Shown here: one piece after another, positions 13,835 through 43,850 of the stretch
Layout: the number at the start of each line of letters is the position of its first letter
Numbering within the stretch: the first letter of the stretch is position 1
NCBI GenBank assembly: GCA_001247695.2
Contig: LGRX02029036.1
Location: 1 to 64,000 of the forward strand
Direction of reading: 5' to 3'
DNA length: 64,000 nucleotides
DNA from: Cymbomonas tetramitiformis
Lineage: Eukaryota > Chlorophyta > Pyramimonadophyceae > Pyramimonadales > Pyramimonadaceae
The notes under the pieces: generated by a model
Told to the model about the DNA's origin: nothing
The model's database searches: none
The model's input: only the letters and a program-made list of their open reading frames with translations
Position numbers and translations under genes: made by a program

Positions 13835-14860
13835 CAAGCCTTCTTTACGAACGTGATGCCACATAGTTACTTTGAGCATTCTACTGTTGGTTTATTAGTG
13901 GCCACTTAGAGAATGAGCCCAATGCTTACACCCCCTTAATTCTTCGACTTCCCTCCCCACCGCTCAGATTCAGCCACCCCTCCACTCACCCGGCCATGGC
14001 TGCTTCTCCATCTTCTAGAGTTTTTTGCTTTGCACCTAGCTTTTTCTCTAGATGTCACCCTGCTGAAAAGTGGGTTGAGCCCCTTTGTGGGCGCGCTATA
14101 GCTGAGGGAGTAGCCCCTGGTGTTTTCACTAGCCTGCTTTGCAGGGATACCGCACTCTCAGGACTTTGTCCCCTTTGCTAGCGTAAATGTTTTATTATTA
14201 TTTTGCTTATACCGTATTTATTTGTTTGTGTATTTCCATTATTTGGAACCTGTTTTTGTCTTTCACATGTTGCATATGTCATTTTATTTTCACCGGTCTG
14301 CTGCGTTTGCATACCTTGGTTTTTGGCACATAACCCTTATTGGACAACCTTGTTCAAGTTGTCCGCGGATGAACTGCTAGTGAATAATAAGCACACCGCT
14401 GCACAATACACATAGGCATACTCCTTCATCTTGGCTATATTTCTTGCACTGCCCTAATATTAGAGGGCTCATTCTATAATACCAACCACTAGATTGAAAC
14501 ATAACCTGGTGTGGGTGTGGCGGGGATTGATCCGCCCTCTCAACACACAACATGCAATTTTGCTCACACAATCCCGTGTCATTTCGTACCGCACCATGTC
14601 ACGCCTCTCCGATGTTATCCCACCACTATAATGCGATAGTTCCCAGGAAATATAACGGAGTACGCTCGACGCGCGCGAGTCGAGGACGACGAACCCGGGG
14701 TTCCGGGTCACGGATATTAGGTCAACTCTCATGTTCACAAAAACACTTTTGTGAACGCGGCATAACCCAAATTAATGAAAGATACTCAGTGAACAAAACA
14801 CGTGCGCGCGTGCCACAGTTTGTTTCGTCTCTTATTATACTCGGTTAACTTCGCTCGTGT
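13835..14860. other. spacer with a possible short inverted-repeat element
   Basis: No gene is supported. The 11-bp word AGAATGAGCCC near 13,908 recurs inverted near 14,465 (GGGCTCATTCT), about 560 bp apart, which might mark a degraded MITE. A GC palindrome cluster (GACGCGCGCGAGTCG) lies near 14,668. Confidence 0.4.
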
Positions 14861-14871
14861 CACTCTCAGAC

Positions 14872-15712
14872 ATGAATTATAAACGGATACGGATTACCGG
14901 AGCGTATGCGACTAAGACACCGATCGTTTGTAGACACACAGGCTGCGGTGTTGTAAAATGGTCCAAGAACGTAGAACGATCTCATGCGACAAGGTGTGCG
15001 CATAATCCGAATGGGCGGAAGTTATTCGCATGCACGCTCCCAGGCTGTTGTTTTGAGGCGAAGTCGGCGCACGGCCTGCGCTACCACATGCGGTCGCCAC
15101 TTAAGCACCCGGAAGTGAACGGAGTTCGTGAGCTGAGCGCAGAGGAGATAGATCGCGTGTATGCTGGTTTTCCACGGGATAAGAAATACGACATTATTTT
15201 GGCGGACCCACCTTGCAGATACGAGAACAACAACGCGACAGGGGCGGCGGCGCACCACTACCCTGTTCTCACGATGAACCAGCTGGGCCATCTGCCGCTG
15301 GCGCGTATCGCTAATAAGAACTGCATATTGTGCTTCTGGACGACGGGTCCCCATATGCAACACTCTTGCGATTTGATATCGCAGTGGCTGGGGATCTAAA
15401 TACCGCACCGTGTTGAGCGTATGGATTAAGCGGTCACGGAATGGGAACGTTTCGGTAGGGTTGGGCTCCTACACACGTTCGTGTGCAGAGTTTATTCTGG
15501 TGGCGGTGAGAGGGAGCCCCCCGATCAGAAAGTGGCGGGCGAGCAAGACAGTCTCGCAACTCATCGCTGCGAAACGGGGAAAGCACTCCGTGAAACCGAA
15601 GGCTGCCTTTAAGGCAATGGAGAAGCTTTTCGCACGATCGCTGACGAAAATCGAGTTATTTGCCCGATCCCCACCAAGAAAGGGCTGGGACGCATGGGGC
15701 AACGAGGTATAG
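14872..15712 (+). pseudogene. MT-A70-type adenine methyltransferase with N-terminal zinc fingers, frameshifted
   Basis: This would be an S-adenosylmethionine-dependent N6-adenine methyltransferase of the MT-A70 fold, acting on DNA or RNA. ATG 14872 is chosen over an upstream GTG. Residues about 20-80 hold two zinc-finger-like segments; the second is a good C2H2 finger, FACTLPGCCFEAK then HGLRYHM and KH. The fold follows: YDIILADPPC (residues 107-115), YPVLTMNQL, LCFWTTGPHM, then after a shift SVWIKRSRNGN, YTRSCAEF and WDAWGNEV at the end. The family's catalytic DPPW is DPPC here. Frame 1 stops at TAA (15397), but skipping that T restores homology at once (KYRTVLSVW). So there is a single-base insertion, a sequencing error, or +1 recoding at ATC-TAA-A. 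It resembles the short phage or mobile-element MT-A70 proteins more than the METTL3 type. Confidence 0.78.
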
Positions 15713-16950: not shown

Positions 16951-17847
16951 ATGCCCCAACCCAAAAGACTCGCAGACCCAAAAGAACACGAAGCCTTTCT
17001 CAGCTCCTGCGAAAGATCAGACCAACTGTGCCCGGGTTTCTATCTCGCCCAACTTGCCGAAGAAATATACGCCACTCAGCAAATTATCGATTACTATCTC
17101 CAGCCCAGGAAGCGATTGCGCAGGTCTAAACGCATCGCGCAACGAAACACTACCCTTCATGCCAAAGAGGAAGCTGTCTCCTCTTCCGTGGCAGAAACCG
17201 ATAAGTGAACTCTTCCCTCAATTTTCGTGCGTCTGCTATACTTGCTTGCAAGTTCGATTCCCACACTGTCTCCAACCTGTCTCATCTTCTCGCTTTCTTC
17301 TTCCTGAGGGCACTCCCTCCTTCTTCATTCGTCCTCGCCGGTCTTTTCGACGACGCAGCTCAACATCAGAGTGGTGGCTAGCGCAACAGACTCCTGCCAC
17401 ATGTCTTGAATTAGAAAACTAGGCGTCTTAAAGGCGGCGCAATACGCGGACATCCATAAACATATTAGCGAAGGTAGTTCATCGTCGACCTCACGAAACT
17501 ATGCCAAGAGCATTCCTGCCACCATATACGGGGGCGGTCGTGTGGCATGGTCGGAGTTTTCTATTGTGGAACCCGATCCTGCTTCACCTTCTATCGATAA
17601 AGAAACTGCCCGCCAGTCCATTTCTTCTCTACACCAGTTCCTACAACAATTACGTCCGCTGGCACGTCGCACTGATTCTGGTTGGTTGCTATTATGTCCA
17701 CCTGACTATGCCGAATTTGTCGTGGAGGCCATACATTTGGTGCAAGGATGTTGTGGAGCGGTCGCACGAGTGAGATGGCCGAAATGCATAATCGATGATA
17801 TCCATGGAATCGCTATATCGGACTTCGGTCGCAGTGGAATCGCATGA
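16951..17847 (+). CDS. unassigned spliced gene next to Element I
   Basis: One block (16,951-17,208) reads CERSDQLCPGFYLAQLAEEI then a basic RKRLRRSKRIAQR, and ends VAETDK. A second block (about 17,430-17,847) reads YADIHKHISEGSSSS, SIPATIYGGGRVAW, LHQFLQQLRPLARRTDSGW, LCPPDYAEFVVEAIHL and ends just inside Element I (ISDFGRSGIA, stop 17,847). If Element I (17,829-29,096) is removed, the frame would read ISDFGYITS and stop. The element may therefore have replaced the last few codons. I recognise no family. Confidence 0.45.
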
Positions 17848-17849
17848 AT

Positions 17850-18975
17850 TCTTAGGACTTTGCGAAAAATATTTTTCAAAAAAAATATTTTTTCAGGGTG
17901 AAATCGCCAAAAAACCGTTGTTTTTAGCTTGTTTTGGCGTTCTACACCATTACGCGGGTGAGGAGTGCAGCGATTCGTGGAATTGAGGGGTTTCACATAT
18001 CACGTAATTAATCCTGATGGTCACCGCAATTTGAAATTTTGAAAAAAAATATTTTCTTGGCCCAAATCGGCCGAAAATCGCGTTTTTTTGCCTGTTTTGG
18101 CCTGTCGCGGGCCTGTTTTGGCGTTCTACGCCACTCCGCGCGTGTGGAGTGCTCATATTCGTGGGAATGAGGGTTTTCACATATCACCTAAGCACTCCTG
18201 ATGGGAATCGCAATTTGAAATTTTGGAAAAAAATATTTTTTGGGCCCAAATTTCAACAGAAATAGATTTTTTTTGCCTGTTTCGGCCTGTCGCGGGCCTG
18301 TTGTGGCGTTCTACGCCACTCCGCGCGTGTGGAGTGCACATATTCGTGGAAATGAGGGTTTTCACATATCACCTAAGCACTCCTGATGGGAATCGCAATT
18401 TGAAATTTTGGAAAAAAATATTTTTTTGGCCCAAATTTCAACAGAAATAGGTTTTTTTGCCTGTTTCGGCCTGTCGCGGGCCTATTTTGGCGTTCTACGC
18501 CACTCCGCGCGTGTGGAGTGCACATATTCGTGGGAATGAGGGTTTTCACATATCACCTAAGCACTCCTGATGGGAATCGCAATTTGAAATTTTGGAAAAA
18601 AATATTTTTTTGGCCCAAATTTTAACAGAAATCGATTTTTTTGCCTGTTTCGGCCTGTCGCGGGCCTGTTTTGGCGTTCCACGCCACTCGGCGCGTGCGG
18701 CGTGCACACAATCGTGGAAATGAGGGTTTTCACATATCACTTAAACACTCCTGATGGGACTCCCAATTTGAAATTTTGGGGAAAAATATATTTTTGGGCC
18801 CAAAAATTAACAGAAATCGATTTTTTTGCCTGTTTCGGCCTGTCGCGGGCCTGTTTTGGCGTTCCACGCCACTCGGCGCGTGCGGCGTGCACACAATCGT
18901 GGAAATGAGGGTTTACACATATCACTTAAACACTCCTGATGGGACTCACAATTTGAAAATTACCCAAATCGATTA
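17850..18975 (+). repeat. 184-bp subterminal satellite array, left end of Element I
   Basis: Six copies with a period of 184-185 bp (ATATCAC anchor at 17,997, 18,181, 18,366, 18,550, 18,734 and 18,919). Each unit contains GGCCTGTCGCGGGCCTG, an inner GGCGTTCTACGCC inverted repeat, and an A/T-rich AAAAATATTTTTT tract. Open frames across the array are an artefact of the repeat. Confidence 0.93.
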
Positions 18976-19118
18976 CAGAATCGTTGTTATGTTGGCATAT
19001 TTTGCGTGGGCCCTGTTGGGCGTTATGCACAACACGCCGAGAGTAGATGCTATTCAGCATGGTGTTGTTTGGGTTCTAAGATTCTAGTGATCTATCCTGC
19101 TGTGATAGTTATACTTCT

Positions 19119-22100
19119 TCACAACAACCCTAGAATGCGCTGGTGCTCAGCATCGGTCAACCTATAAAACTCCTTACCGCGGTATTTGCGTCTGGTCATT
19201 GTCACTTCCACACACACGACATGATGCGAATATGTCAGACATTTCTTGGATGTGTCTATGTAGTACTCCTCGCAGCTTTCCTCATCCGCCCACTCATAAA
19301 ATCGGCCTTCAACGACAAATTCCCCCGGTGTAGCATTTACGCCCTCCCCACCAGGCGAGTAGTAGTCGTCTCGCATCCCATCCGCGTTGATCACCTGCTT
19401 CACCTCGCTCAACGCCTTCACCAAATAGTAGGGGTGATTAGGATCGCCCCCCGACAGCCTTGCAAAAGTGTTTCCTCGTGCAACCTTCACACTCACGTCA
19501 TCACGGGCCTCCGCGACTCTTGTTCTGGTGCGCCGGGCATCAGATTCGGTTGCCTCCGTCAAGGTGAACTGCTCCCAGCTGTCCACGTGACTCCGGTACA
19601 GGCAACCCTCCGTGTCAGGTTGTGCCTTCGCGCACTGCGCGTAACAATAATCGCAATAGCATTGTCGGTCCCGCTTCAAGCCCACCAACAACCCCACCCC
19701 TGCACGCACCGAGTGTAACGCCAAAGTCCGGTCAACCGTGTCAAACCCAGGTCCAGAGATGTCCACGTCCTTGCCGTCAACCAGAAAGAAAAATCTTTGC
19801 CCGAACTGAACACCTCTGTCGCGAGCGCTATCCTTCGGCTTTTGCAACCTTTCCATGCAGAACTCGTACAAGCTTTTGGCGTCCAGTATTTTACAATGCC
19901 ATTTGTCGGTTGTGGACATCACCGCCAAGCTCGCCTCATGCTTCACCGCTACTCCCATCGCGTCTTGCTCACCTCGTGCATGTGACGTCTCAAAGAAGTT
20001 GCGCTGTGTCGGGATGCCAAGCCCTCGGGGCCACTCCGCCGACTCTTCCCGCCCGCTCTCCACCACGTCGGCAAATGCGGTTGCGCATTTGTTTTGTGCC
20101 GCACTACCATCCGCCCACTCATGCATGAATTTGGGGAGAGGTATACCTCTCTTCACGAAGTACTCACTGACGATAAGTTTCCTCATATGTTGGATACCTC
20201 GGTGGGAGTGCGGCAAGGTGTCGCTAATGAGGTAGATCAGGTCCTTCACTATTATTGGGTTGGCCTCGGTGGAAGTCTGACCATCCACGGAACCAACCGC
20301 GTGCCGCCATAACACACAACACAGCAGCGTTGCTTGCTTCACTATCCAGTGCAACGACTGAATCGCCCTGGGAATGTTCAGAGCGTGGTTCTCGCTGAAG
20401 TCAAACAATATGAGGCAGTGCCCCAAAGGCAAGCCCGCCTTGCACTTGTTGAACATTGTCATGGAGTGCGTGGCCATGAAACAGTGGTAGGCATACGGCT
20501 TCAAAAACCGACACGGTTGGGCAGCAGGCACACCGACCAACTTCTCCAACCTCCAACTCCCGTCCGCCGCTTTCCGCACAAACGTGCCCGAACACACACA
20601 ATTTGGGGACTCCCCTGGGGCGTGGCCAAGGAGCAGAGCTTGCAGTTTTGCAAGCAGCTCACCAGCAGTGGTCGTCTTTTGGACGAACTGCACCCGGTGC
20701 TTGTTCTTCCCGTCCTCGTCCACTCCGATATGAACGTTCTCGTAGGTGTGCCAGTCCAGCGTGGCAGTGTTGGAAACCGCCGCCGGACACAACGACCAGT
20801 TTTGCAGCCCCCCGCACCGTTTGCAAGAACCCTCCAAGCAGGGCATGTCGTGGTGGTCCTCGTGCTCTCCGTTCGACCGCTGTCTTGGACACAGCAGCGA
20901 TGCCGTGAAACCGGAGGTTGACCGTCCCACCTCCACTCGACCACACTTGAAGTCCGGGAAAGCAGGAAATGGTTTACGGGCAGACAGCCGTGCCCGAAGG
21001 CCTCCAACGCGAGGGCAACACGACGCGTCCGTGCACTTGCAGCCGGAGTGGCCCACCTCCTGGAAACGAGCATACGCCTCCACCACCAACCGCATATCCT
21101 CGTGGTACCTGCAGCAGCAGGAAATGGTGTCCCTTCGGGTGAGTCGTTGCACTTGCCTCGGCTTCCGAGTCTCAAAAGATCGGAGTTCGATCTTTTCGGC
21201 GGGAAACTTCTTCTTGAACTTGCGGAACACCTCCAACTGTGTCATTTCCAACCACTGCTTCGACACCTTCTCCACGCTTCCATCAATATGCCGCAGCTGG
21301 ATCACGTCCCGTTTACACGTGGACACCCGACTGATCCCAGCACTCAGCCAGAAGGCTTGGATCTTGTGGGTCAGCTCCGCGCTTATAGCACGGTTGGCCA
21401 TGTGCAGGTTTTCCAGGACCAACCCTGCCAGAAGACCGGCATTAAGCCGTTGCGCTGTCCCAAGGGCAGCTCCCAACAGCAAGTTGCGGTGCCCAACGAG
21501 TCCATCCTTCACCACCTTCACATTTATCCCTAAGATGCTTGCAACAGCACCCTCAACACCCTCCACGTCTCTGCCAAATACCATCGCGGCGCCCGCCATG
21601 CGCGTGGCAGCGTTCTGCCTGGAACCATATCCAGCTAGAGCGGCGAACGATGCCCGCAAGCTCGACACGATCGTTCCTCCTACGCGATCCTCCTCTGACA
21701 GAAATCTTAGCCGCACAGCTTCTATCTCTTCCGCGGGTAAGGTGCGCACAAAGTTCGAGAGCGCCCCACCAATAAGATGCGGCTTGTTCATGAAAACCTC
21801 CTTGAGCTTGTTGTTCCAGTGTTGTATACTTCCATGCGGCACCAGGCAACCCACCGCTGAGGCTCCTGCGGAGGCTGCTGTGGCGCCTAAGGGACCCAGC
21901 GTCGATTTCACCCGTGCTTGAGGCGCAGAGACCTCCACCGCGTCCTTGCCCAAGTCTAAACGCTTCCTAGAGCGAGCTTCCCTCCTTCGCGCATTCTGAT
22001 CAAGGCGCCTTTTCTTAACGGTACTGGTAGGTGTGGGCGCATTCCTCGCATTCCTCCCAACCCCACCTGCCTGCAGCACGCTAGGATCTCTGCTCGGTTT

Positions 22101-22298
22101 ATTCCCAGTTAACACATTCCATTTATCGACGAACTCCGAGATCTGCCCCGCTAGTTCTGTTGCATGATCCACATTCGTTGGTGCAATAGGAAACTCCAAA
22201 GGCAAGTTCCGCGCCATGTCGCCGAGGCTCATGAGCCATGGCAATACATCCACAAGGTAAGAAGGAGGAGGCATCCCTTTTCGAAAAACGCCACTCAT
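19119..22298 (-). CDS. Element I transposase (DDE/RNase H-like), 1059 aa
   Basis: A single open frame of 1059 residues starts at ATG 22298; an upstream TTG is less likely. The N-terminal third is basic and Ala-rich. The middle carries several Cys/His clusters, such as CKCTDASCCPRVGG and HHDMPCLEGSCKRCGG, that should bind zinc and DNA. The C-terminal half has the pattern of a large eukaryotic transposase family: ILFDFSENHALNIPRAIQS (Asp633), then ISDTLPH, then HEWADGSAAQNKCA (Asp730), then FETSHARGEQDAMG. These are the likely metal-binding acidic residues. I do not see the DIACQ-type motif typical of KDZ transposases, so I assign it only to a DDE-like group. It diverges from the dioxygenase gene and should act on the satellite ends in the nucleus. 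Confidence 0.75.
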   Translation of the reverse strand: MSGVFRKGMPPPSYLVDVLPWLMSLGDMARNLPLEFPIAPTNVDHATELAGQISEFVDKWNVLTGNKPSRDPSVLQAGGVGRNARNAPTPTSTVKKRRLDQNARRREARSRKRLDLGKDAVEVSAPQARVKSTLGPLGATAASAGASAVGCLVPHGSIQHWNNKLKEVFMNKPHLIGGALSNFVRTLPAEEIEAVRLRFLSEEDRVGGTIVSSLRASFAALAGYGSRQNAATRMAGAAMVFGRDVEGVEGAVASILGINVKVVKDGLVGHRNLLLGAALGTAQRLNAGLLAGLVLENLHMANRAISAELTHKIQAFWLSAGISRVSTCKRDVIQLRHIDGSVEKVSKQWLEMTQLEVFRKFKKKFPAEKIELRSFETRKPRQVQRLTRRDTISCCCRYHEDMRLVVEAYARFQEVGHSGCKCTDASCCPRVGGLRARLSARKPFPAFPDFKCGRVEVGRSTSGFTASLLCPRQRSNGEHEDHHDMPCLEGSCKRCGGLQNWSLCPAAVSNTATLDWHTYENVHIGVDEDGKNKHRVQFVQKTTTAGELLAKLQALLLGHAPGESPNCVCSGTFVRKAADGSWRLEKLVGVPAAQPCRFLKPYAYHCFMATHSMTMFNKCKAGLPLGHCLILFDFSENHALNIPRAIQSLHWIVKQATLLCCVLWRHAVGSVDGQTSTEANPIIVKDLIYLISDTLPHSHRGIQHMRKLIVSEYFVKRGIPLPKFMHEWADGSAAQNKCATAFADVVESGREESAEWPRGLGIPTQRNFFETSHARGEQDAMGVAVKHEASLAVMSTTDKWHCKILDAKSLYEFCMERLQKPKDSARDRGVQFGQRFFFLVDGKDVDISGPGFDTVDRTLALHSVRAGVGLLVGLKRDRQCYCDYCYAQCAKAQPDTEGCLYRSHVDSWEQFTLTEATESDARRTRTRVAEARDDVSVKVARGNTFARLSGGDPNHPYYLVKALSEVKQVINADGMRDDYYSPGGEGVNATPGEFVVEGRFYEWADEESCEEYYIDTSKKCLTYSHHVVCVEVTMTRRKYRGKEFYRLTDAEHQRILGLL

Positions 22299-23210
22299 AA
22301 GCGGCAAACATGTAAGGAGTCTACGGGCGAAAGCACGCCTTCAATTAACATATTTGCATGTCTGAACTTTTGCACGGACTCCCACATGCATCAGGAATAT
22401 GAATAGTCCTTTCACGAAAAGTATCCGTGGCGTAAGTATCGCCCCCAGGATGGAATGACTGTTCGATCGTGGGGGCGATTCGCCATTTCTTGATTTATCA
22501 CCCGGACATGTCAAATTTGACGTAGCGTGTGTATCGCACCCACGATCAACTGCTGCGTCGATCGTGCGGGCGATTCATAAATTTCGATTCAAGATTCGAT
22601 CGTGTAATGATTTATCACCCGGACATGTCATATTTCACGTGGCGTGTGTATCGCACCCACGATCAACGAATTCGTCGATCCTGCGGGCGATTCATAAATT
22701 TCGATTCAAGATTCGATCGTGTAATGATTTATCACCCAGACATGTCATATTTCACGTGGCGCGTGTATCGCACCCACGATTAGGTGATGAGCTGATCGGG
22801 AGGGCGATAATGCATATCAGATAATTTAATTGAAATTCCGTCACGACACCGTAAGCATGTCAGGCCAAAAGTCCGATACCTGCGCACAGGAAGCTCGAAT
22901 CGGCATGTCGGTTCGCCCACACGATCAAAAGATGGGATGATCGGGAGGGCGATAATGTATATCAGAGCCCTCCCCCGACATCTTACAACTGAACGAGACC
23001 CCTAAAAACCGTAAGCATGTCGGACCAAAAGTGCGATATCTGCTCACTGAGAGCTCGAGTGCTTGTAACGGTAACGCCAACCTGCGAACTGTACGCTATC
23101 TGCGACCATAGCACTTTCTTCGCGTGTTTTCGTTGCGCAATTGACGTTTGGATCGAGGACGAAGGCATTGACGGTTACTTTGGTATAAATTGGGAGCTAA
23201 TATTCTAATA
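22299..23210. promoter_or_regulatory. divergent promoter region of Element I with tandem repeats
   Basis: The 0.9 kb between the two divergent genes carries about 2.5 copies of a 117-bp unit (TGATTTATCACCC at 22,491, 22,608 and 22,725). Each contains CACGATCA and GATCGTG-type inverted words. A looser repeat of about 160 bp follows (CCGTAAGCATGTC near 22,850 and 23,010; GATCGGGAGGGCGATAATG near 22,797 and 22,940). No coding region is supported. A role as a bidirectional control or transposase-binding region is inference. Confidence 0.6.
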
Positions 23211-26200
23211 ATGAAGCAGAACAGATTCACCTATGCAGCAGCGGTTGGGGCAGCCGTGCCAAACGCTTTAAGGCGCAAGTCAGATCGGAAGTCAGAGCGG
23301 AAACTGGTGGAAGGTGTCGCCGAGAGTGAAGGAGTACCCGCCTGCAATGTGGAAGGGTGCCCCCATCCCGACGACTCGTTGGATCGAACGAGGCTGGCGT
23401 TGGCGACCTGCGACATGTGCTCCGACTCCTTCCACGTTGGGTGCGCGTCGCGCCAGCTCACACCGTCAGGGGAAAAGCGGTTTCCAGGGGAATGCGGGCG
23501 CTGCGGGATCCTGGCCCGCCTGTTCTGCCTCTTTTGCGGAATGGGTTCGGAGAATCACTTCCCAGTGCTTGTTACCTGCGCGACCTGCAAGCGCGGGTTC
23601 CACAAGAACTGCCGAAAATCCGGAGACAGCCACTCTTCAACATGCGGGCGCCATCTCTGCGTTGGACAGCCTCCTGTCAAATGGGCGTGCACGGCCTCGC
23701 CGAACCCTGATGATGGGCAGGCTGCTGCGGATACTGGTGCTGCTGCTGCCAGCGCGGAGAAGGCTGAGGGAATGGCAGCGCAGCAGCAGGCTGCTGCAAA
23801 CATGGACGAAGCTCCGTTACAGGAGGCGCCCACGTTCGCAGCCGTTGTTCGCGCAGAACCAGGAGGCGGGCTGGTGGAGAAGCATCAGTTGTCGCTAATT
23901 TCTAAGAAGGAGGCAGGCGATGCCGACGCAGCAGCACCGCCTGCAGCTGCCACCGCAGCAGCACCGCCTGCGGCTGCCACCGCAGCAGCACCGCCTGCGG
24001 CTGCCACCGCAGCAGCACCGCCTGCAGCTGCCACCACAGATGCACCGCCTGCAGCTGCCACCGCAACAGCACCGTCCGCAGCAGCACCGTCAAGACCCGC
24101 GCTCTTCCACGCGCCTGCTGTGAAGGCCCCGGTTTCACAGGACATGCCTGCTGTGGAGGCCCCTGATCCTCAGCACAAGTCTGCTGAGGATCAGCCAGTT
24201 GCAGAGCAGGGCACGGCTGCTGCAGAGACGCCTGCTGCCGTGGACGTGCCTGCTGTGGAGGCCCCGGTTTCACAGGACATGCCTGCTGTGGAGGCCCCTG
24301 ATCCTCAGCACAAGTCTGCTGAGGATCAGCCAGTTGCAGAGCAGGGCACGGCTGCTGCAGAGACGCCTGCTGCCGTGGACGTGCCTGCTGTGGAGGCCCC
24401 AGTTTCAAAGCATCAGTCCGCTGGGGAGGTGCCAGATACAGAGGAGGGCACAGATGCTGGAGAGACGCCTGCTCCTAAGGTGCCTGCTGCGGAGGGGGCA
24501 AAGAATGCGGAGGAGCAGCCTCACTTCACAAAAGGCGTGCTGCTGGACGAACACTGGAGGCATAGGCTTGCAGAGGGTGGGTATTGTGTCGGTCAATTGC
24601 AGGACACGATATCCGCTAAGGCTCTGGTTGCAGAGTTCCAGAAGGATTTGGCTCCAAACTCCGCGTTCAGAAACAACTTCAGGGCGTTCAAGAAGAAGGC
24701 CAATGGGGAGCTGGACACCCTGAAGGACCCGAAGAGGTGGATCGGGAACCTGGTGGAGGGCACGCCGTTTTACAAACGGTTTGAGCAGGTGGCTGAGGAC
24801 GTCGTGGCTGCGGTGGGGGACACGTTCGGGAAGCTGGAGGTGCCGAAAGGTGACATGGCGCGAACCGCCCTGCTCACCTACCCGGCGGCGTTGGTTCAGG
24901 AGAAGCATCGGGACTATGGTGCGCTGTCCGTCATGCTTGTCCTAACGGACATGTACCCGTTTACGGTGTACCCCCAGTCGCATAAGTTGGGGGATGGGGC
25001 CACCCCGGACACCCTTCGGCCGGTGACCTGCTTCCTGCCGGCAAAGAGCGTGGTGATCTTTGACGGCAGGCTAATCCACAACGCGGTGGAGATGCACGGT
25101 GGAACTTTTCGTGCGTCGGCGCACACCTACATTACAGCGGCGGAAGACCTCTTTCCGGAAAACACCACTTTTCCGGTCACTGGATCCGCCACTGTAACAA
25201 GGTCGCCCTGGGAGTTTGTGGTTGGGCATGACCCTTGCAGAAGAAAGCTTTATGACTCGCAAGGAATTGAGCGAGCCACTACCTCGGAGCCTTCCCAGGC
25301 AATGACAGCCCTGGAGCGGGAGATCGACTTCGCGAACGCGATCAATGAGGTTGACGAGGATATGGGGAGGAGTGTGGTGCTTGGGGAGCCACAGGAGTAT
25401 GATGCGTGCCTGGCGTTGCGGGAGCTTCTGAGGGATACGGTGGCTTTTGGGAGGGTTGTGTACCACGAACAGCACAAGGAGGTGGTCTGGATTGGTGGCC
25501 CCATCGTGAAGCCAAGGGAAGGTGCAAAACAAGGGACGGCATGCTGGGTATATGGGCCGTGGCTTGTGGCGGATCCAGTGGGGAGTAAGATTCCGCGGAG
25601 GAGGGTGCTGTTCCGCGCTACGGCGTTGAACAGCAAGCTAAGTTTGATAACACAAGCCAGGGATTGGGAGGTAGTATACTACGACAACATCAACGAGGAA
25701 GGAGGCTTTTTTGATGAGGCATACAATTCCTTTAAGCACGGTCTGGTGGAGGAGGGGGTGATTCGGGTGATGAAAAGTTTGCAGGCATATGGGAAGGGGC
25801 ATGCGGAGACGTTGACCGGCGAGTTGAAGCCGCCGGTGACTGCAGCAGCAGCAGCAGCAGCAGCAGAAGCGGAGAAGAAGGAGAAGGAGAAGAAGGAGAA
25901 GGCTGCAGCAGCGGAGAGGGAGAAGGAGAAGAAGGAGAAGGCTGCAGCAGCGGAGAGGGAGAAGGAGAAGAAGGAGAAGGCTGCAGCAGCGGAGAGGGAG
26001 AAGGCGAGGAAAGAGAAGGCTGCAGCAGCGGAGAGGGAGAAGGCGAAGAAAGAGAAGGCTGCAGCAGCGGAGAGGGAGAAGGCGAAGAAGCTCCGGGCGG
26101 AAACCCTGTCTGGGATAAAGATGGCATTGGCAATTCCTCGGGGGACTAAGCGTGGACGGGGAGGTAGCCCCGCGGGCACTGAGACCCCTGTTTGGGGTAA

Positions 26201-27650
26201 AGGACCGGAGCCAGGCACCAGGGTGAAGGCGCGGAGGACAGGCGCTGAGGGGAACATCTCCGAGACTCTCCCCGCGTTCGGCTCCACTCAGAGAGTGCCT
26301 GAGGTTTGTGACCCACTGCAGTCTTTGAGACGAACGCGCTCGCAGCAGGCAGCGGCGGCAGCAGTGGAGGGTGGCTCCGACAGGAAACGCAGGAGCCCTT
26401 GTCCAGTTCATGGCCCTCGTGCTGCACAGTCGGAGCCGGACGAATTGTCGGACACGGACACGGAGCAGGCAGAAGCAAGCATACCAAGAGGGCCGTTGTC
26501 TGCGCGAGCCCCGCTGGCATTGGAGGAGCTGGATACGCAGGTGGGTACTCCTTCAGGGCCTTTCGAGCACTCCCCTGGGGGAGTGCTCGATCCCCTAAAC
26601 CTCTTCAACGATTCAGTGGGCCGCAACACGCCCATTGACAGCCGGATGCATCATCATAGTGCAGACGCCGCGGAGCTGTTTAACAGGGAGCGCGCGGCGA
26701 CGGGGAGCCTGACGACGGACTTGGCCAGGCCACAGTCGGAAGGTTGGGAGGGGCGAAGGGAGGTGACACCGAGCTCAGCTGAACCTCCGGTGTTGGCGTC
26801 GAAGGCCCGTCAGGCGGAGATTGCCGAGTTGGAGGCTCAGGTGAGGATCCAGGCCTTGAAGATGCAGTTGGCGCAGGGGGCAGCCGCCTTGGCCCAGGCA
26901 GGGATTGCGTCGGCTGCCTCCCCAGGGCCGGAGGTAGGTGCCACGGCAGCTGCCACGGCAGCAGCACCGCAAGCGGCGGCCACGGCAGCAGCATCTCCTG
27001 CCGCGGCCACCGCAGCAGCACCGCCTGCAGCTGCCACCGCAGCAGCACCGCCTGCGGCTGCCACCGCAGCAGCACCGCCTGCAGCTGCCACCGCAGCAGC
27101 ACCGCCTGCAGCTGCCACCGCAGCAGCACCGCCTGCGGCTGCCACCGCAGCAGCACCGCCTGCAGCTGCCACCACAGATGCACCGCCTGCAGCTGCCACC
27201 GCAACAGCACCGTCCGCAGCAGCACCGTCAAGACCCGTGCTTTTCCACGCGCCCAGCTCCCCTGGTGAGACTGCTCCGCCGGAGATGCCATATGAGTGGG
27301 TGTATGGTGGGGTTTATTATAACTCGGATAGCGTACCTCCCCAACATCACGGGCGCGCCCTCGCCGCCCTCCCCCAGTACCCGCCCATGATGCTGGGGCT
27401 GGACCCGTATGCTGCGCAGACCCCGTATGCGCAGACCTATCGGGCACCCCACGGCCGTGCGGCCCATGATGCCATGCCAGGTTATGCGTTGGCGGTGCAG
27501 CAGCAGTACCCTGAGCAGCTGGTCACGATGCCTTTACGGCAGGCGATGAGGCTGAATGCAGCCTTGTCAAGGCAGCTTCCGCCTGAGTGGTCCTCACAGC
27601 CGCGGCAATCATGGGACCCGTTTTATGGACCTGGCATGCGCCGCCCCTAG
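23211..27650 (+). CDS. PHD-finger / 2-oxoglutarate-Fe(II) dioxygenase protein of Element I, 1479 aa
   Basis: The start is ATG 23211 (MKQNRFTYAAAVG). Residues about 50-165 hold two PHD-like zinc fingers (CDMCSDSFHVGC from Cys67; CATCKRGFHKNC from Cys126). A long Ala/Pro-rich linker follows, with 8-residue repeats and a 46-residue duplication. Residues about 440-650 form a double-stranded beta-helix dioxygenase with the iron triad His566-x-Asp568 (EKHRDYG) and His623 (RLIHNA), and the 2-oxoglutarate Arg634 (GGTFRASAHTYI). Next come a Lys/Glu/Ala coiled coil (about 880-965) and a low-complexity tail with the same Ala/Pro repeats. The enzyme would use Fe(II), O2 and 2-oxoglutarate. TET/JBP-type base oxidation, AlkB-like repair and protein hydroxylation are all possible; PHD fingers favour a chromatin role. 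The subfamily is unproven. Confidence 0.82.
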   Translation: MKQNRFTYAAAVGAAVPNALRRKSDRKSERKLVEGVAESEGVPACNVEGCPHPDDSLDRTRLALATCDMCSDSFHVGCASRQLTPSGEKRFPGECGRCGILARLFCLFCGMGSENHFPVLVTCATCKRGFHKNCRKSGDSHSSTCGRHLCVGQPPVKWACTASPNPDDGQAAADTGAAAASAEKAEGMAAQQQAAANMDEAPLQEAPTFAAVVRAEPGGGLVEKHQLSLISKKEAGDADAAAPPAAATAAAPPAAATAAAPPAAATAAAPPAAATTDAPPAAATATAPSAAAPSRPALFHAPAVKAPVSQDMPAVEAPDPQHKSAEDQPVAEQGTAAAETPAAVDVPAVEAPVSQDMPAVEAPDPQHKSAEDQPVAEQGTAAAETPAAVDVPAVEAPVSKHQSAGEVPDTEEGTDAGETPAPKVPAAEGAKNAEEQPHFTKGVLLDEHWRHRLAEGGYCVGQLQDTISAKALVAEFQKDLAPNSAFRNNFRAFKKKANGELDTLKDPKRWIGNLVEGTPFYKRFEQVAEDVVAAVGDTFGKLEVPKGDMARTALLTYPAALVQEKHRDYGALSVMLVLTDMYPFTVYPQSHKLGDGATPDTLRPVTCFLPAKSVVIFDGRLIHNAVEMHGGTFRASAHTYITAAEDLFPENTTFPVTGSATVTRSPWEFVVGHDPCRRKLYDSQGIERATTSEPSQAMTALEREIDFANAINEVDEDMGRSVVLGEPQEYDACLALRELLRDTVAFGRVVYHEQHKEVVWIGGPIVKPREGAKQGTACWVYGPWLVADPVGSKIPRRRVLFRATALNSKLSLITQARDWEVVYYDNINEEGGFFDEAYNSFKHGLVEEGVIRVMKSLQAYGKGHAETLTGELKPPVTAAAAAAAAEAEKKEKEKKEKAAAAEREKEKKEKAAAAEREKEKKEKAAAAEREKARKEKAAAAEREKAKKEKAAAAEREKAKKLRAETLSGIKMALAIPRGTKRGRGGSPAGTETPVWGKGPEPGTRVKARRTGAEGNISETLPAFGSTQRVPEVCDPLQSLRRTRSQQAAAAAVEGGSDRKRRSPCPVHGPRAAQSEPDELSDTDTEQAEASIPRGPLSARAPLALEELDTQVGTPSGPFEHSPGGVLDPLNLFNDSVGRNTPIDSRMHHHSADAAELFNRERAATGSLTTDLARPQSEGWEGRREVTPSSAEPPVLASKARQAEIAELEAQVRIQALKMQLAQGAAALAQAGIASAASPGPEVGATAAATAAAPQAAATAAASPAAATAAAPPAAATAAAPPAAATAAAPPAAATAAAPPAAATAAAPPAAATAAAPPAAATTDAPPAAATATAPSAAAPSRPVLFHAPSSPGETAPPEMPYEWVYGGVYYNSDSVPPQHHGRALAALPQYPPMMLGLDPYAAQTPYAQTYRAPHGRAAHDAMPGYALAVQQQYPEQLVTMPLRQAMRLNAALSRQLPPEWSSQPRQSWDPFYGPGMRRP
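23922..24110 (+). repeat. 24-bp coding repeat, first block
   Basis: Tandem copies of a GC-rich 24-bp unit (GCAGCACCGCCTGCAGCTGC then CACC) encode ATAAAPPA-type repeats. The final part, from CCACCACAGATGCACC, is almost identical to the end of the second block 3.1 kb downstream. Confidence 0.9.
24118..24396 (+). repeat. 138-bp in-frame tandem duplication
   Basis: Two near-identical copies encode APVSQDMPAVEAPDPQHKSA followed by a shared 26-residue stretch, with a third partial copy after them. The duplication preserves the reading frame. Confidence 0.9.
26990..27245 (+). repeat. 24-bp coding repeat, second block
   Basis: Eight or so copies of the same 24-bp unit as at 23,922, ending in the same variant units and the same PSRP-LFHAP coding sequence, with only a few differences. 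This suggests copying or gene conversion within the gene. Confidence 0.9.
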
Positions 27651-28059
27651 ATATGGTTAAATTGGAGCCTGTGCATCAGCCTAAAAAGCATGTGAAGCTG
27701 TGAATCAGCCTAGAAGAGATATATTCCGAAAAGAGATTTTCTCTCACACACTTAAAAGCATGTAAAAATAAAGCTATTTTTATTGAAATGCTATGCAGTG
27801 TGCCTATTGGCAATGAGATGTGAAGAGCAAAAGAAATGCAAATGTTTCCTGAAAAGTGTTAGGTTATGGGTCCAACACGCTTCCATTGTGCTCCAGCTAA
27901 TCGTTATCCAAATAACAAATTATATTCATGTTTTGATAATGACAGGCTTGTGTTCCTCGTGATGGCAACTCGTATGCAATTACAAATTTCCAACTGAAAC
28001 AGGCCTGGAGACCACGAATATGCACACTTCGCACGCATGAGTATATAATATACGTACAT
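27651..28059. other. 3' flank of the dioxygenase gene
   Basis: AT-rich. AATAAA-like AAAATAAAG occurs near 27,764 and could serve polyadenylation. No further gene is seen before the right satellite array. Confidence 0.4.
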
Positions 28060-29075
28060 GTAGAACGCCAAAACAGGCCCGCAACTTGCCGAAACATGCC
28101 AAAAAATCGATTTCTGTTGAAATTTGGGCCCAAAAATATTTTTTTCCGAGAATTTCAAATTGCGATTCCCATCAGGAGTGCTTAGGTGATATGTGAAAAC
28201 CCTCATTTCCACGAATATGTGCACTCCACACACGCCGAGTGGCGTAGAACGCCAAAACAGGCCCGCGACAGGCCGAAACAGGCAAAAAAATCGATTTCTG
28301 TTGAAATTTGGGCCAAAAATATTTTTTTTCCAAAATTTCAAATTGCGATTCCCATCAGGAGTGCTTAGGTGATATGTGAAAACCCTCATTTCCACGAATA
28401 TGTGCACTCCACACACGCCGAGTGGCGTAGAACGCCAAAACAGGCCCGCGACAGGCCGGAACAGGCAAAAAAATCGATTTCTGTTGAAATTTGGGCCCAA
28501 AAATATTTTTTTTCCAAAATTTCAAATTGCGATTCCCATCAGGAGTGCTTAGGTGATATGTGAAAACCCTCATTTCCACGAATATGTGCACTCCACACAC
28601 GCCGAGTGGCGTAGAACGCCAAAACAGGCCCGCGACAGGCCGGAACAGGCAAAAAAATCGATTTCTGTTGAAATTTGGGCCAAAAAAATTTTTTTTTCCA
28701 AAATTTCAAATTGCGATTCCCATCAGGAGTGCTTAGGTGATATGTGAAAACCCTCATTTCCACGAATATGTGCACTCCACACACGCCGAGTGGCGTAGAA
28801 CGCCAAAACAGGCCCGCGACAGGCCGAAACAGGCAAAAAACCGCGATTTTCGACCGATTTGAGCCAAAAAAATATTTTTTTTCAAAATTTCAAATTGCGG
28901 TGACCATCAGGATTAATAACGTGATATGTGAAACCCCTCAATTCCACGAATCGCTGCACTCCTCACCCGCATAATGGAGTAGGACGCCAAATCAAGCTAA
29001 AAACAACGGTTTTTCGGCGATTTCACCCTGAAAAAATATTTTTTTGGGAAAATGAAAAAAAGTTGTATTTTTTAA
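28060..29075 (-). repeat. 184-bp subterminal satellite array, right end of Element I
   Basis: Five to six copies of the same 184-bp unit in the opposite orientation (anchors near 28,186, 28,369, 28,553, 28,738 and 28,921). The outermost unit on each side is the most diverged and matches its opposite partner best, as expected for paired element ends. A degenerate unit lies at 27,940-28,080. Confidence 0.93.
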
Positions 29076-29309
29076 ATTCCTGCGATTCCACAGCGATTAC
29101 ATAACATCATAGAAATATTCCATTATAGTTGTGACACATACTTAAGCCATTCTCACTCGTGCGACGGCTGTGTGGACGCGATAAAGTCATGTTCGTTCTT
29201 CCTTTGGTTTCCTTTCCTACGCACGCCCTTTCCTTCCTTCCGGTCCTTTTTTACATCGATATGTTGGCCCTCCACTTCTCATCGACACACAGTGACGTTT
29301 ATTTTGCAG

Positions 29310-31194
29310 GTACCAGCTTCGATCGCACAACGTCGGCAACATTTCCGATCCGTTCGTCACCGAAATTATCCGCAAGTGTCCAGTTTGTGTCATCAACAAG
29401 CGGCCCAAGACCATCAAATCGGTCACCGCCATACGTGCTTCTCAGCTTAAGCGAGAAGAAAGTTGGGACTACACGGATTCCAACGAGGGCTCCGACTCTA
29501 CTCTGCACGTCGTTAAGAGCCCAGGAGGATGGCAACGAGCGCACAACGTTAACACCGAAAAGGTGCGGGGCTCCCTTATGTGCATAGCGAGATATGTGCA
29601 TTTCATGTTTGTTCTCAGTCGTCATCATTTTATTTGTGCTTGCAGCTGTACGTTGTGGCTGCCTCCATGATGGAAGCATGGGATGAGTACGACGCCCCTA
29701 CAATTGTCCGTTGTGACAATGGTCCTGCCTTCGCTGCTCACTTGCTTAAGGTCCGTTAACAGTCTACCTTTTCTCACGTTCGCATATCTTGCGCTTTGTG
29801 TATCGTTCCAATTTGCAGGCCTCCTGTCGCCATGGCACTACTTACCGCAACTTTCACGATGCCGTTCCGCGTGTTTCTTCTATCCCTTTGTCACCACTAC
29901 CATGGCACCCAAAAAACGACGACGAGTGTTTCTTCCTATCCAGTGCCATGGAGGCTGGTTGGGATGAACACACAATTCTATCCCTGCTCCATGATCCTTT
30001 ATTCCTTGTGGACACGGGTTAGTATCTTTTATAACCACGGCCCCTTACCCCGAAGCTTGCTTTTCTATGCCACTATACATTCTCTATCTTTGTGTTCACT
30101 TTGTGTGCTGTGGGTCGGTCTTTCTCAAGATCATCGCCGCCGTCTACAAAGTGAACATCCAGTTCATCCCCCCTCGTGATCCTGCTGCCAACGGTCGCGT
30201 TGAGCGAGCACATGCCCCTCACCATGCTCGGGTCCGATCTCTTTTGACCCAGTTCCCAAGTCTCCACCCGTTCGAGGCGTGCAAGATGAGCATCGCAATC
30301 GCCAACAAGCAGTTGTATGTTCCTACCGGAATTTCTCCCTTCGAATTCCGGTATGGGCGAGCTCCGGCATCCTGCTTGGCCACTCAGCTTGGGGAGACGC
30401 CATCTGCTTCTGCTGACGCTTTAACCCCAACCATCATAAATATCGAGGACCGTGTCGCTCTAGCTCACGCTGTTCGTCAAGAGGCTCAAGCTCATCAAGC
30501 CAAATACCAGGATCGTTATGATGGGAAGCAAGTTGGTAAGTCGACTACTTTGCAGGTTGGCGATGCCGTCTTGCTCCGGCGTACTGGTCCAGACCGTAGC
30601 TCAATCGCCACCTCCAAGCTCCTCGGCTTTGCGAACACCGGCCCCTACATTTTGTCGGAATTTGTGGGGAAGACCGCAGCCCGCCTTCGTGATGTCCTGT
30701 GGGGCAACTCCCTTCCGGATACCGTGAAGGTTGAGCGCTTATCCCTATTCCGCCGCCGTGGTACCACGCCTGTGCCCCAGTTTGAAGAGATTCTTCAATC
30801 TCAAGACAAGCCTAAGCTGGATGCTGCATACAGTGCCCAGGAGCGTCGCTTACAAGAACTTAAAGCTGACCTTGCTTTACGTCCCGATGCTCCAGTGTGC
30901 ACCTCTTGCAAGAAAAAGGTGGACCGCCTGCATGCCAAGAATTGTTGCAAGCCTTGCTACACAAGGTTGGCCAATGCCCGCGCTAAGGTGCGCACTCCTC
31001 ACCTCACTGCTCAATTCCTTGGGACTACCGACCGTGCGCGCGTGCTACGGTTCGCGCTGCAGACTCCGTATGTATGCACCTTCCATCCACTGACTTGTTG
31101 ACTTTTTTATCTTGCTTGGGTTTCACAGCAGGCTAAACGCACTGCAGAAGATCCAGCACCTCGTCCTCGTGGACGCCCGCGCAAGGCCACATGA
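29310..31194 (+). pseudogene. retroelement-like integrase with introns, zinc finger and AT-hook
   Basis: Several exons are separated by introns of about 70-110 nt. Exon 29310-29562 holds the end of an integrase zinc-binding domain (HNVGN...IIRKCPVC). Exon 29646-29750 holds core sequence ending VRCDNGPAFAAHLL. Exon 29819 to about 30,017 is an unusual insert (FHDAVPRVSSIPLSPLPWHP). Exon 30130 to about 31,067 resumes the core (IPPRDPAANGRVERAH, YVPTGISPFEFRYGR) and a C-terminal domain (LQVGDAVLLRRTGP), then a CTSCKKK...CCKPCY zinc-finger-like segment. A last piece encodes PRPRGRPRKAT, an AT-hook. The first catalytic Asp region is not recognisable and two junction phases do not match, so the copy is probably dead. 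No reverse transcriptase is present. It resembles Ty3/gypsy-type or related integrases. Confidence 0.65.
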
Positions 31195-32863: not shown

Positions 32864-32897
32864 AACGACCATATCGCAAAAATGAGACACGCGGGCG
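32864..32897 (+). repeat. Element II left terminal inverted repeat
   Basis: Begins AACGACCATATCGC and is preceded by the GCTT duplication. It is followed by ATGAGAAAAAAATGAG, a partial echo of the TIR's own ATGAGA word. Confidence 0.9.
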
Positions 32898-33660
32898 TAA
32901 ATGAGAAAAAAATGAGAAAGCATTAAATTGTCTGCCAAATTGGTTTTTGGGGTTCTGAATGACAAATATTAGGGTTAATTTGAATAGTCCTTGAAGGAAT
33001 TTCGAAAAATCTGGTTTTTGACTCTTCAAAGTAGCCACGCGAGTCACGCGGGCGGCAAGAAAACGGGAAAGGTGGAAGTATCGTGTAAGGTGTGGAAAGT
33101 TATGATTTTGCCTTATGTTTGTGAACGAAATGTTAGATTTTTGCACTATTAGAATATGTAATATTTTGACATTTCCGAAAATGCAACTATTTGCTTACAT
33201 GGGAGAGATCCAGCAGATTTATGGCCCATTTTAGGGTGTTTGGAGGGTCACGTACTAAAATTCTTCTCATCGGGCGAAAGTGAGCAGCAAAGGAGATATT
33301 TTCAAAAGCTATTGTGCTGGAAAAGTTGTTCGGGAGTGAAACCAACCAGGGGTGATGCTCCCTCAGGCTTCATGTGACCCAACATGGGCATTCAGCGGGT
33401 AAATTTGCCCTGAACAGGCTATTCCAGCACGATTCTCGGCAGCTAAGAAGACCGGTTAACTGTATTATTTCGCGGGAAACATTAAAATACGTCAGAGGCA
33501 AAATATCCCGCGGCAGGTGTTCCTACAGGTGTGCTGCACATGGATATATCGGGGCGTCCAAGGTTCAGGGTTTTAGGGTATATGTTGGAGGAGTCGTAAC
33601 CGGAGGTCGTTTGCACACACCTGCGTTCGTGACATAGAACCACAACCCGCACCTTAGACT
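32898..33660. other. left subterminal region of Element II
   Basis: AT-rich and without a supported gene. Unlike the right side it shows no 163-bp tandem array, so the element's subterminal regions are asymmetric. Confidence 0.6.
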
Positions 33661-33672
33661 ACCTACACCAGT

Positions 33673-34173
33673 ATGGCCAATATTGGAATATTGCAGTATT
33701 GGATATGGCCTTTCGATACTTTTACGTTTCGCGACTGCCAGTTACAACAAGCCCAATGGGTTCCTGAAGACCCTTTAATTCTCCGCTTGTGGCAGCAAGC
33801 GCGGGAACAAGCAGAAGAAGACTGGGAGGACTTCGGGCAACATGCAGTTAATCTCAGGACCTATCACTGGTGGAGTTTTTGGCCGATGTACGTCCACGGC
33901 CGTAGATCCAGCGAAAGGTTCGGTGTGAGGCATCTCGTGTACTGGTATGAGGGCGGGTGGATCTACCACCGATACTCAGATTTGGAGTGGCGGGCCTGGC
34001 GAAATAGAAACCGCTACAGCGAAACAACGCACGGTGCCCTGACAGAGCTGGAAAGCGATCTGCTGCAAGAAGATGATAGGAGATGCGCAGTTTGCGGGCG
34101 TATGTTAAGAACCTGCACCCTGGCGCGCATATTTGATGCTAGCGCGTGCAATGAGGAGACGTATGCTTGGTAG
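33673..34173 (+). CDS. Element II small Trp/Tyr-rich protein, 166 aa
   Basis: An open frame from ATG 33673 gives a 166-residue protein, very rich in Trp, Tyr and Arg (NLRTYHWWSFWPMYVHGRR, DLEWRAWRNRNRYSE). It ends with a possible half zinc ribbon, CAVCGRMLRTC. It faces the 3' end of the transposase gene, which is convergent from the right. I recognise no family. Its position inside the TIRs makes it a likely accessory gene of the element. Confidence 0.55.
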   Translation: MANIGILQYWIWPFDTFTFRDCQLQQAQWVPEDPLILRLWQQAREQAEEDWEDFGQHAVNLRTYHWWSFWPMYVHGRRSSERFGVRHLVYWYEGGWIYHRYSDLEWRAWRNRNRYSETTHGALTELESDLLQEDDRRCAVCGRMLRTCTLARIFDASACNEETYAW

Positions 34174-34310
34174 CTAACACTTATGTCACGTGACTGTACA
34201 CAAATAAACCGTATATTTACATGTATGAAAAACAATAAGTTTCACGCCGTGTTGCCATTGTAATCTAGTGTGCGTGCCACGAGGAATGAATGAGGCTGTG
34301 TTGCTTACCT

Positions 34311-37300: not shown

Positions 37301-37711
37301 CGCCTTCGCCACAGGGAATGCAGTTGTTGCCGGTAGTTCCCCCTTCTCTTCAAGGATAAGTGCCTTATATCGCTGGTACGAGCTCCTGGGGAGCGCCCAC
37401 ACTGTTCTGAACGCCTCCTCGCAGATCTCCTTTTCGAAAAGCTTCAGGGTGCCAATAACACGCTCTCCAGACTCGCGCTTCACGATCGCTTTGCGCATAG
37501 TTGCCATAATGTAAGACTTGAACTCAGTTTGGCCCATGCGCTCCTTATGGTCCATATTGCCCTTGAATGTGCTGAACAAGAAACTGCAGTTCCGATCGCA
37601 CCCACAGCTGAAACCGCCCTCGCATAGTCCGGGAATATTGGACTGTGCAATTTGAAGAGTCTTCTGCTTTGACAATCTCCTGCCGCTGGAGTTGCTGCTA
37701 TTGCTGCTCAT
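34311..37711 (-). CDS. Element II transposase, DUF7869-like, 1114 aa
   Basis: Two exons, 37711-35622 and 35565-34311, are joined through a 56-nt intron (GTATTA...ATTGCAG) in phase 2 to give 1114 residues. The N terminus has a Cys cluster (CEGGFSCGCDRNC). The catalytic-like core contains AADGAANQN (Asp290), LHLQLDGGSENWNKN (Asp378) and VVFHRLMVAHTHNDCDGWFG (Asp419). This is the order and wording of the DUF7869-type domain found in transposon-derived proteins of many eukaryotes. The C-terminal exon is Ala/Pro/Lys-rich with an acidic run (repeated DDE) and ends in a globular-looking segment (VKWGFWLPCAPLLMPRTRR). It is transcribed away from the palindromic array. The transposase role comes from family resemblance plus the TIR setting. 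Confidence 0.78.
35566..35621 (-). other. 56-nt intron of the Element II transposase gene
   Basis: Donor CAA|GTATTATG and acceptor CCATTGCAG. Phase 2 on both sides gives SCKYTVAECKAAL across the junction. Without splicing, the first frame would run into unrelated sequence. Confidence 0.8.
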
Positions 37712-37779
37712 CTTGCGAGACGCGTACCGTTGTTATGCTGTTTCATATTTGAACGCTTACCTGATATGAGGGTCCTTGT

Positions 37780-38812
37780 TTCCTAGAACTTGGGCGGGGT
37801 TATGACCTTGACCGCCCAAGTTTTCTAGAACTTGGGCGGGGCGATGACAGTGACCGCCCAAGTTTTCGAGAACTTGGGCGGGGCGATGACCGTGACCGCC
37901 CAAGTTTTCGAGAACTTGGGCGGGGCGATGACAGTGACCGCCCAAGTTTTCGAGAACTTGGGCGGGGTTATGACCTTGACCGCCCAAGTTTTCTAGAACT
38001 TGGGCGGGGCGATGACAGTGACCGCCCAAGTTTTCGAGAACTTGGGCGGGGCGATGACCGTGACCGCCCAAGTTTTCGAGAACTTGGGCGGGGCGATGGC
38101 GGTGACCGCCCAAGTTTTCGAAACAGGCAGACGATGACCATGTTCCGCTTAAGTTTTCGAGAACTTGGGCGGGGCGATGGCGATGACCGCCCAAGTTTTC
38201 GAGAACTGGGCGGGGCGGTGGCATTGACCATGGATTTTCGAGAACTTGGGCGGGGCGATGACCGTGACCGCCCAGGATTTTCGAGAACTTGGGCGGGGCG
38301 ATGACATTGAGCCGCAAGTTTTCGAGAACTTGGGCAGAACTGACTTGACAGTGACCGCCCAAGTTTTCGAGAACTTGGGCGGGGCGATGACCGTGACCGC
38401 CCAAGTTTCGAGGGCTTGGGCGGGGCGATGACGATGACCGCCCAAAGTTTTCGAGAACTTAGGCGAACGTGGCATTGACCGCCCAAGTTTTCGAGAACGG
38501 GCGGGGCGATGACCGTGACCGCCCAAGTTTCGAGAACTTGGGCGGGGCGATAACGATGTGACCGCCCAAGTTTTCGAGAACTTGGGCCGGAACGATGGCG
38601 ATGACCGCCCAAGTTTTCGAGAACTTGGGCGGGAGCGATGGCTGATGACCGCCCAGAGTTTTCGGAACGGGCGGGGCGGTGGCGGTGACCGCCCAAGTTT
38701 CGAGAACTGGGCGGGGCGATGACCGTGACCGCCAAGTTTCACCGCCCAAGTTCTCGAGAACTTGGGCGGGGCGATGATAGTGACCGCCCAAGTTTTCGAA
38801 GACTTGGGCTGG
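37780..38812. repeat. 42-bp palindromic array between divergent Element II genes
   Basis: About 25 tandem copies of a 42-bp unit with core CCGCCCAAGTT-TTCGAG-AACTTGGGCGG, so every unit can form a hairpin; a spacer GCGATGACNGTGA separates them. Near 38,746 one copy is a perfect palindrome (AAGTTCTCGAGAACTT). A few copies are shortened. It lies between the start codons of the transposase (37711, -) and the partner gene (38866, +). It probably acts as a bidirectional control region or transposase-binding region. Confidence 0.93.
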
Positions 38813-38865
38813 GAGTTTCGCAGGGTTAAACAGAGCCCGTTGTGCAGCATACAAAACTTTTCGCA

Positions 38866-43430: not shown

Positions 43431-43850
43431 GTAGGTATGCTTAATAAGCCAGCCAGCAAACGAACTGAGAGATCGCACCTGCACTGCCATCGTATATACC
43501 GGCCTGTACAATGAATAATACCGCGCCCGCAAGAAAACCCCTAACCCTGGGTGCTTTGACTGTTCAAATAAAGACTGTATATTTTCATAGCACCAACGTC
43601 TTATCTGGTAGCATTCTTCGTGCCTTTTGTCGGTTTTTGTTGTTTTTTTGTGCTACGCACACAGTTACAGTCTCGTGCAGACCTACACCCCCTAGATTTA
43701 AGGTTGGTGCCACCGCTTTTAACATTAAAGCCTCCCATTCTCGGGGTGTATGTAAGATATGAACAAAAGTTTCTTCAGACTCAGTTTGTTTGGAATGACT
43801 TTGACGTATCCAATATGAAAACATCGTCATTATCACCACTTTCAACAAAT
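43431..43850. other. 3' flank of the partner gene
   Basis: No further gene supported. A CAATAAAGAC-like AAATAAAGA near 43,566 could be a polyadenylation signal. Confidence 0.4.

Follow-up and report, generated by a model that had tools for sequence, protein, structure and literature searches.

A 64,000-nucleotide stretch of the green alga Cymbomonas tetramitiformis (positions 1 to 64,000 of contig LGRX02029036.1, here called the window; contig C19752 of the 852-Mb assembly searched) carries, at 17756–29170, a complete 11.4-kb DNA transposon, which is bounded by terminal inverted repeats and a 4-bp target-site duplication and has near-identical copies. It is an autonomous-looking cut-and-paste element, in which two divergent long open reading frames enclosed by inverted arrays of a 184-bp unit encode a transposase and a conserved accessory protein; the latter joins PHD-like fingers to a predicted 2-oxoglutarate and Fe(II)-dependent (2OG) oxygenase domain. 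The pairing of the two genes is real and recurrent. We propose, with a probability of roughly 48%, that the PHD fingers bring the accessory protein to chromatin, where it oxidises a mark or a protein and so counters silencing, both the substrate and the function being what we infer. An earlier sequence-only reading had described a transposon with a PHD-2OG gene, two intact reading frames and arrays around them, placed at 17829..29096; the element, the frames and the pairing, which recurs beside a diverged transposase, hold, while comparison of copies moves each end about 70 bp farther out. The features of the element in the window are:

17752–17755, no strand: left target-site duplication, TGTG
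17756–17779, plus strand: left terminal inverted repeat, starting GAGCGGTCGCACGAGTGAGA, at the limit of copy homology and pairing with the right end
17930–18958, plus strand: left subterminal tandem array, 184-bp unit, 5.6 copies
19119–22307, minus strand: transposase gene, 1062 amino acids
22491–22808, no strand: 117-bp tandem repeats with putative dyads, between the divergent genes
23211–27650, plus strand: PHD-2OG accessory gene, 1479 amino acids from its ATG
23343–23690, plus strand: two PHD-like fingers, residues 45–160, from Pfam and from similar regions in two sister families
24519–25154, plus strand: 2OG-Fe(II) oxygenase domain, residues ~437–648
24906–24908, 24912–24914, 25077–25079 and 25110–25112, plus strand: H566, D568, H623 and R634, as the sequence-only reading had placed them
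28060–28991, minus strand: right subterminal tandem array, inverted, 184-bp unit, 5.1 copies
29147–29170, minus strand: right terminal inverted repeat, ending in TCTCACTCGTGCGACGGCT plus one base
29171–29174, no strand: right target-site duplication, TGTG

The comparison of copies fixes the ends, as homology ceases at about 17756 and at 29169–29170, and the terminal inverted repeats lie right there. Read inwards, the end sequence is GAGC(G/C)GTCGCACGAGTGAGA, the first bases varying slightly among copies. The two inverted arrays have longest inverted arms of 568 nt and 403 nt, complementary at 91% and 95%, respectively. A 4-bp duplication flanks eight of the nine two-ended copies, that of the window included (C11890 is the mismatch), as compared with 4-bp matches in only 2 of 72 swapped pairs that served as a chance control. 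Ten other copies are 97.6–99.9% identical to the window in their longest matched pieces (9.6–11.5 kb), two of these ten (C1585 and C14237) being one-ended matches. The array was found in at least 40 places (40 scored of 523 candidates), all 40 at 99–100% identity, and the 2OG region in at least 104 (104 scored of 1023 candidates), none of them below 95% identity or interrupted by a stop; both counts are lower bounds. The lack of a second copy was one of two conditions that the sequence-only reading had named for its refutation, and at least 104 near-identical copies were scored. Judged by these sequences, the transposon family is complete and looks recently active.

Two sister families share this organisation in part. 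The transposase of the first (P0010 type) is 61% identical to that of the window and occurs in at least 49 places (49 scored of 2671 candidates). In the one flank that was read (locus L060 on C3389), a divergent PHD-coding frame is accompanied by one that codes for a 2OG domain and matches the window protein at 35% identity along 426 residues; the two separate frames are presumably divided by an intron. Searching with the L060 2OG region returned 145 matches, mostly of the L060 type itself, the others being the L061 type at 80%, a pair at 48%, one of which was read (L062), and a band of 60 at 41–43%, from which L063 on C5494 was read; L062 and L063 are known from their 2OG regions. In five contigs (C2045, C7601, C9638, C17750 and C17208) the transposases are 91–95% identical to the P0010 type and the 2OG regions 80–82% identical to L060, with the 2OG match on C17208 lying 11.6 kb from the transposase. 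In P0010-like copies the oxygenase gene seems, from such sequences, to change faster than the transposase. The second sister family (P0012 type) has a transposase 39–44% identical to that of the window in at least 44 places (44 scored of 2779 candidates), and its single flank read (L059) encodes a PHD-like protein, 30% identical in the PHD region. The region that follows the 2OG domain in the window protein was also compared with this third family, and kinship was not supported (E 0.52).

The linkage of the two genes could be followed across the genome. Among window-type arrays, 28 of 40 have a 2OG match at 6.1–6.4 kb, and a divergent 2OG match lies less than 6 kb from 29 of 45 P0010-type transposase starts. 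The transposase motif E-W-A-D-G-x-x-x-Q-N-K, searched as a 35-base degenerate pattern, has 909 genomic occurrences, 462 on one strand and 447 on the other (reversed control 0), a count that sums all families and includes broken copies. On the contigs of the first 100 motif places, the motif stands 4.3–4.8 kb from 10 of 15 window-type and 4 of 7 L060/L061-type 2OG places. For nine places of the 41–43% band on listed contigs, it was present at the same distance in two and absent in four, and the contig was too short in three.

The PHD-like fingers that had been read from the sequence were recovered by the PHD profile PF00628 on residues 1–180 alone, at 24.6 bits (cut-off 24), the whole protein giving 14.6 bits. 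The sole oxygenase match in Pfam is PhyH, and it lies below the cut-off of 22: the isolated domain scores 19.6 bits (E 0.0012) and the sequence P0001 14.5 bits, and PhyH is listed neither for the whole window protein nor for L060–L063. The predicted structure of the domain is a double-stranded beta-helix of the PhyH type, and the closest solved folds among the matches listed are of that type too (SnoN, AviO1, OkaE, FtmOx1 and human PhyH). Kinship with the TET/JBP enzymes, to whose pairing with transposons the sequence-only reading had compared this one, is not supported by these results. The same reading had also held that a firm placement in a housekeeping family acting on substrates other than nucleic acids would speak against it; the PhyH-type folds go part of the way there, because most known PhyH-type enzymes work on small molecules, the PhyH profile itself staying below its cut-off.

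These folds bear on the reading in which the 2OG domain is a PhyH-type small-molecule enzyme carried as cargo. The nearest listed folds (SnoN, AviO1, OkaE and FtmOx1) and the weak PhyH profile match favour it, but in the window the domain shares one open frame with PHD fingers, and at least two families retain it beside the transposase; we regard cargo as quite improbable. A catalytically dead domain that serves as a binding scaffold only is very improbable, as H566, D568, H623 and R634 are unchanged in all five diverged 2OG sequences.

A third reading has the oxygenase oxidise modified DNA bases (5-methylcytosine, 6-methyladenine or T), in the manner of the TET/JBP enzymes of fungal transposons. 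The HxD...H...R residues for metal and 2OG occur in other 2OG families as well and are not specific to TET/JBP. The C5-methylase matches present in the assembly (124, the best spanning the full profile with E 5.7e-65) speak for base oxidation, as does a genomic setting equal to that of the fungal TET+ transposons (PMC12730594). Against it, the Tet_JBP profile is unlisted in Pfam at E up to 10 for all five 2OG sequences, and the nearest listed folds are of the PhyH type, with TET missing among the best 50 matches listed in each fold search, which does not in itself exclude it. A genome search with the Tet_JBP profile (PF12851) was empty as well, but its controls were equally silent. The AlkB and prolyl-hydroxylase profiles are likewise unlisted in Pfam for the five sequences. 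On balance, base oxidation seems a rather improbable function.

The relatives of the oxygenase that were found come from the same alga. Protein searches gave three matches among 7999 scored candidates for the 2OG region and three among 1134 for the domain alone, all from Cymbomonas, although distant relatives may escape such a search because it requires shared 5-residue words. NCBIfam and PHROGs returned chance matches only, and two scans of viral contigs found no relatives. A fold search against viral predictions returned general 2OG proteins, many of them from phages and giant viruses, with no special link.

Judged from the diverged sequences, the oxygenase is under constraint between families; the ratio of non-synonymous to synonymous change between L060 and L061 is 0.40 or 0.23, depending on which of two methods is used. 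Within the window family, the selection ratio is about 0.53 for the whole PHD-2OG gene and about 0.51 for the transposase. The 2OG region shows no difference across 11 copies, a result that is biased because the ten fetched copies were chosen by 2OG identity. The PHD part alone carries 10 non-synonymous differences and 1 synonymous difference, which is evidence against strong constraint there.

The transposase has nine relatives that are 39–100% identical, three of them from Cymbomonas and the others ena, jgi or ncbi records. In the alignment of 10 sequences, D733, E780 and D782 are invariant and D636 is nearly so. D636, D733 and E780 or D782 are candidate DDE residues in contexts that fit a DDE enzyme, the choice of triad being our own reading of the alignment. 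No Pfam family reaches its cut-off on this protein. Pfam contains a KDZ model, and the scan found no KDZ-type match; the duplication is 4 bp long as against the 7–8 bp of KDZ elements. The view that the transposase is not KDZ-like is supported. A kinship with the DUF7869 protein of a neighbouring element was tried and found unsupported (hhalign E 0.15).

In each of the three families read, the space between the divergent genes contains tandem repeats with putative dyad symmetry: units of 117 bp in the window, 115 bp in L060 (5266–5794) and 104 bp in L059 (8297–8976), the dyad arms reaching 19 bases in L060. The window region, 22491–22808, is likely the shared promoter region, and one might guess that the repeats are bound by a protein of the element.

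In the mechanism we envisage, the transposase would bind the terminal repeats and might also bind the subterminal arrays, and the PHD fingers would carry the accessory protein to chromatin, where the 2OG domain would oxidise a methyl mark or a chromatin protein. This oxidation would keep the element expressed, or admit the transposase, despite silencing. Action on bases or chromatin against silencing, as the sequence-only reading had suggested, is a reasonable conjecture. An alternative is that the PHD-2OG protein is a partner in transposition, in which the PHD fingers pick the target chromatin and the 2OG domain acts as a switch by hydroxylating the transposase or a host factor. Choosing target chromatin is also the presumed role of the PHD finger of RAG2. 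Here a PHD-like protein adjoins the transposase in three families, and the sharing of one element by a transposase and a PHD protein is also described for RAG1L-RAG2L/TransibSU (PMC4411706). No link between the 2OG domain and the transposase was found, however, and we think such a partnership unlikely.

Several observations weigh against an oxygenase guided to chromatin by PHD fingers. Most of the best fold matches are small-molecule enzymes. The PHD region of L059, in one sister family, scores 10.1 bits against the PHD cut-off of 24, and in the other family the L060 PHD frame has no Pfam match, a pairwise E of 5e-10 with the window being the sole basis of its similarity. By eye, no stretch like the conserved 2OG motifs was seen in the L059 flank, in the three frames on the strand of its PHD-like protein, where an isolated H-R-D is present; the oxygenase is therefore not needed by every such transposon. 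Sixteen of the 45 transposase starts and 12 of the 40 arrays have no listed 2OG match, numbers that include short contigs and incompletely listed matches and possibly genuine absence. The AlphaFold2 model of the transposase (pLDDT 39) is too poor for showing an RNase H fold. Finally, CpG figures do not decide whether the element is methylated: observed/expected CpG is 0.91 for the element, 0.73 for the PHD-2OG gene and 1.24–1.50 for the arrays and the intergenic region, and CpG transitions make up 29 of 249 differences between copies, at a rate of 0.0017 per CpG base, 2.4 times the 0.0007 for each other C or G.

That one sister family lacks a visible 2OG domain in the flank read suggests an older PHD accessory and an oxygenase that was gained, or lost, as a module. 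A bolder proposition, which we hold only tentatively and consider doubtful as a whole, is that an undescribed group of eukaryotic DNA transposons, with several families and hundreds of copies in one alga, evolved its own PHD-guided, PhyH-type chromatin oxygenase outside TET/JBP, JmjC and AlkB, which alters or removes a silencing mark on the element. Should the oxygenase prove to work on chromatin or DNA, transposons would have acquired such enzymes by a route independent of TET/JBP; this would, if true, be a new kind of substrate for a PhyH-type enzyme. With its plentiful intact copies, this one alga is a natural setting in which to test whether transposons bring along erasers of their own, and the transposase group, with no Pfam match, could extend the list of eukaryotic superfamilies.

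Other features were seen in the window. A second inverted-ended element at 32864–44552 has 35-bp ends that are 97% complementary, a DUF7869 protein (35288–37711, minus strand, E 4.5e-18) and arrays of a 163-bp unit (43857–44493) and a 42-bp unit (37778–38739). An MT-A70-type methyltransferase fragment (PF05063, E 8.5e-7) lies at 14857–15399, after zinc-finger-like cysteines; two frames at 2809–4791 resemble, by eye, a sugar kinase and a KDPG aldolase; and 30067–31101 may be the remnant of a retroelement integrase (rve_3, 13.4 bits, below cut-off).

Among known systems, SnoN, AviO1, OkaE, FtmOx1 and human PhyH resemble the 2OG domain of the window in predicted fold, at 12–20% identity in the alignments. 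PhyH-type 2OG enzymes have the same kind of metal and 2OG residues, and we know of none that is joined to PHD fingers or carried by a transposon. The closest counterparts in genomic setting are the fungal TET+ transposons, where TET/JBP genes were described in eleven lineages and an escape from silencing was argued (Kojima, PMC12730594). Both combine a transposase with a 2OG-Fe(II) oxygenase gene, with anti-silencing proposed and the coding regions mostly undisrupted; the element here differs in its green algal host, its duplication of 4 bp (Kyakuja has 7 bp, Zisupton 8 bp), its oxygenase, which is PhyH-like in fold and joined to PHD fingers, and its transposase with no Pfam match, and the term PHD does not occur in the main text of that paper. 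Plant Vandal (MuDR) elements with their anti-silencing protein, and the SET-carrying HarbingerS/MuDR, likewise encode an epigenetic modifier, but, in the passages citing them (PMC12730594), they have other transposases and no 2OG oxygenase. TransibSU and the hypothetical TransibVDJ, related to RAG1-RAG2, provide a transposase and a RAG2-like partner in one transposon, a Kelch-PHD protein in TransibVDJ and a head-to-head pair in the sea urchin; they differ in a 5-bp duplication, a RAG1-type transposase and a partner with no oxygenase (Kapitonov and Koonin, PMC4411706). The Polinton-like viruses of Cymbomonas are interspersed and inverted-ended in the same alga, but, according to the genome paper (PMC10675990), they span 15–25 kb with capsid, ATPase and polymerase genes, whereas the two genes here, whose products the Pfam scan covered, fill most of the element. 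The same paper gives a figure of 43.6% for unclassified repeats, and the word dioxygenase is absent from its main text. No earlier report of such an element was found in a literature search, most subscription journals lying outside its reach. Fungal TET/JBP transposons and RAG2-like partners are known; the present element brings both ideas together in a green alga, with PHD fingers, a different, PhyH-like oxygenase and an unplaced transposase.
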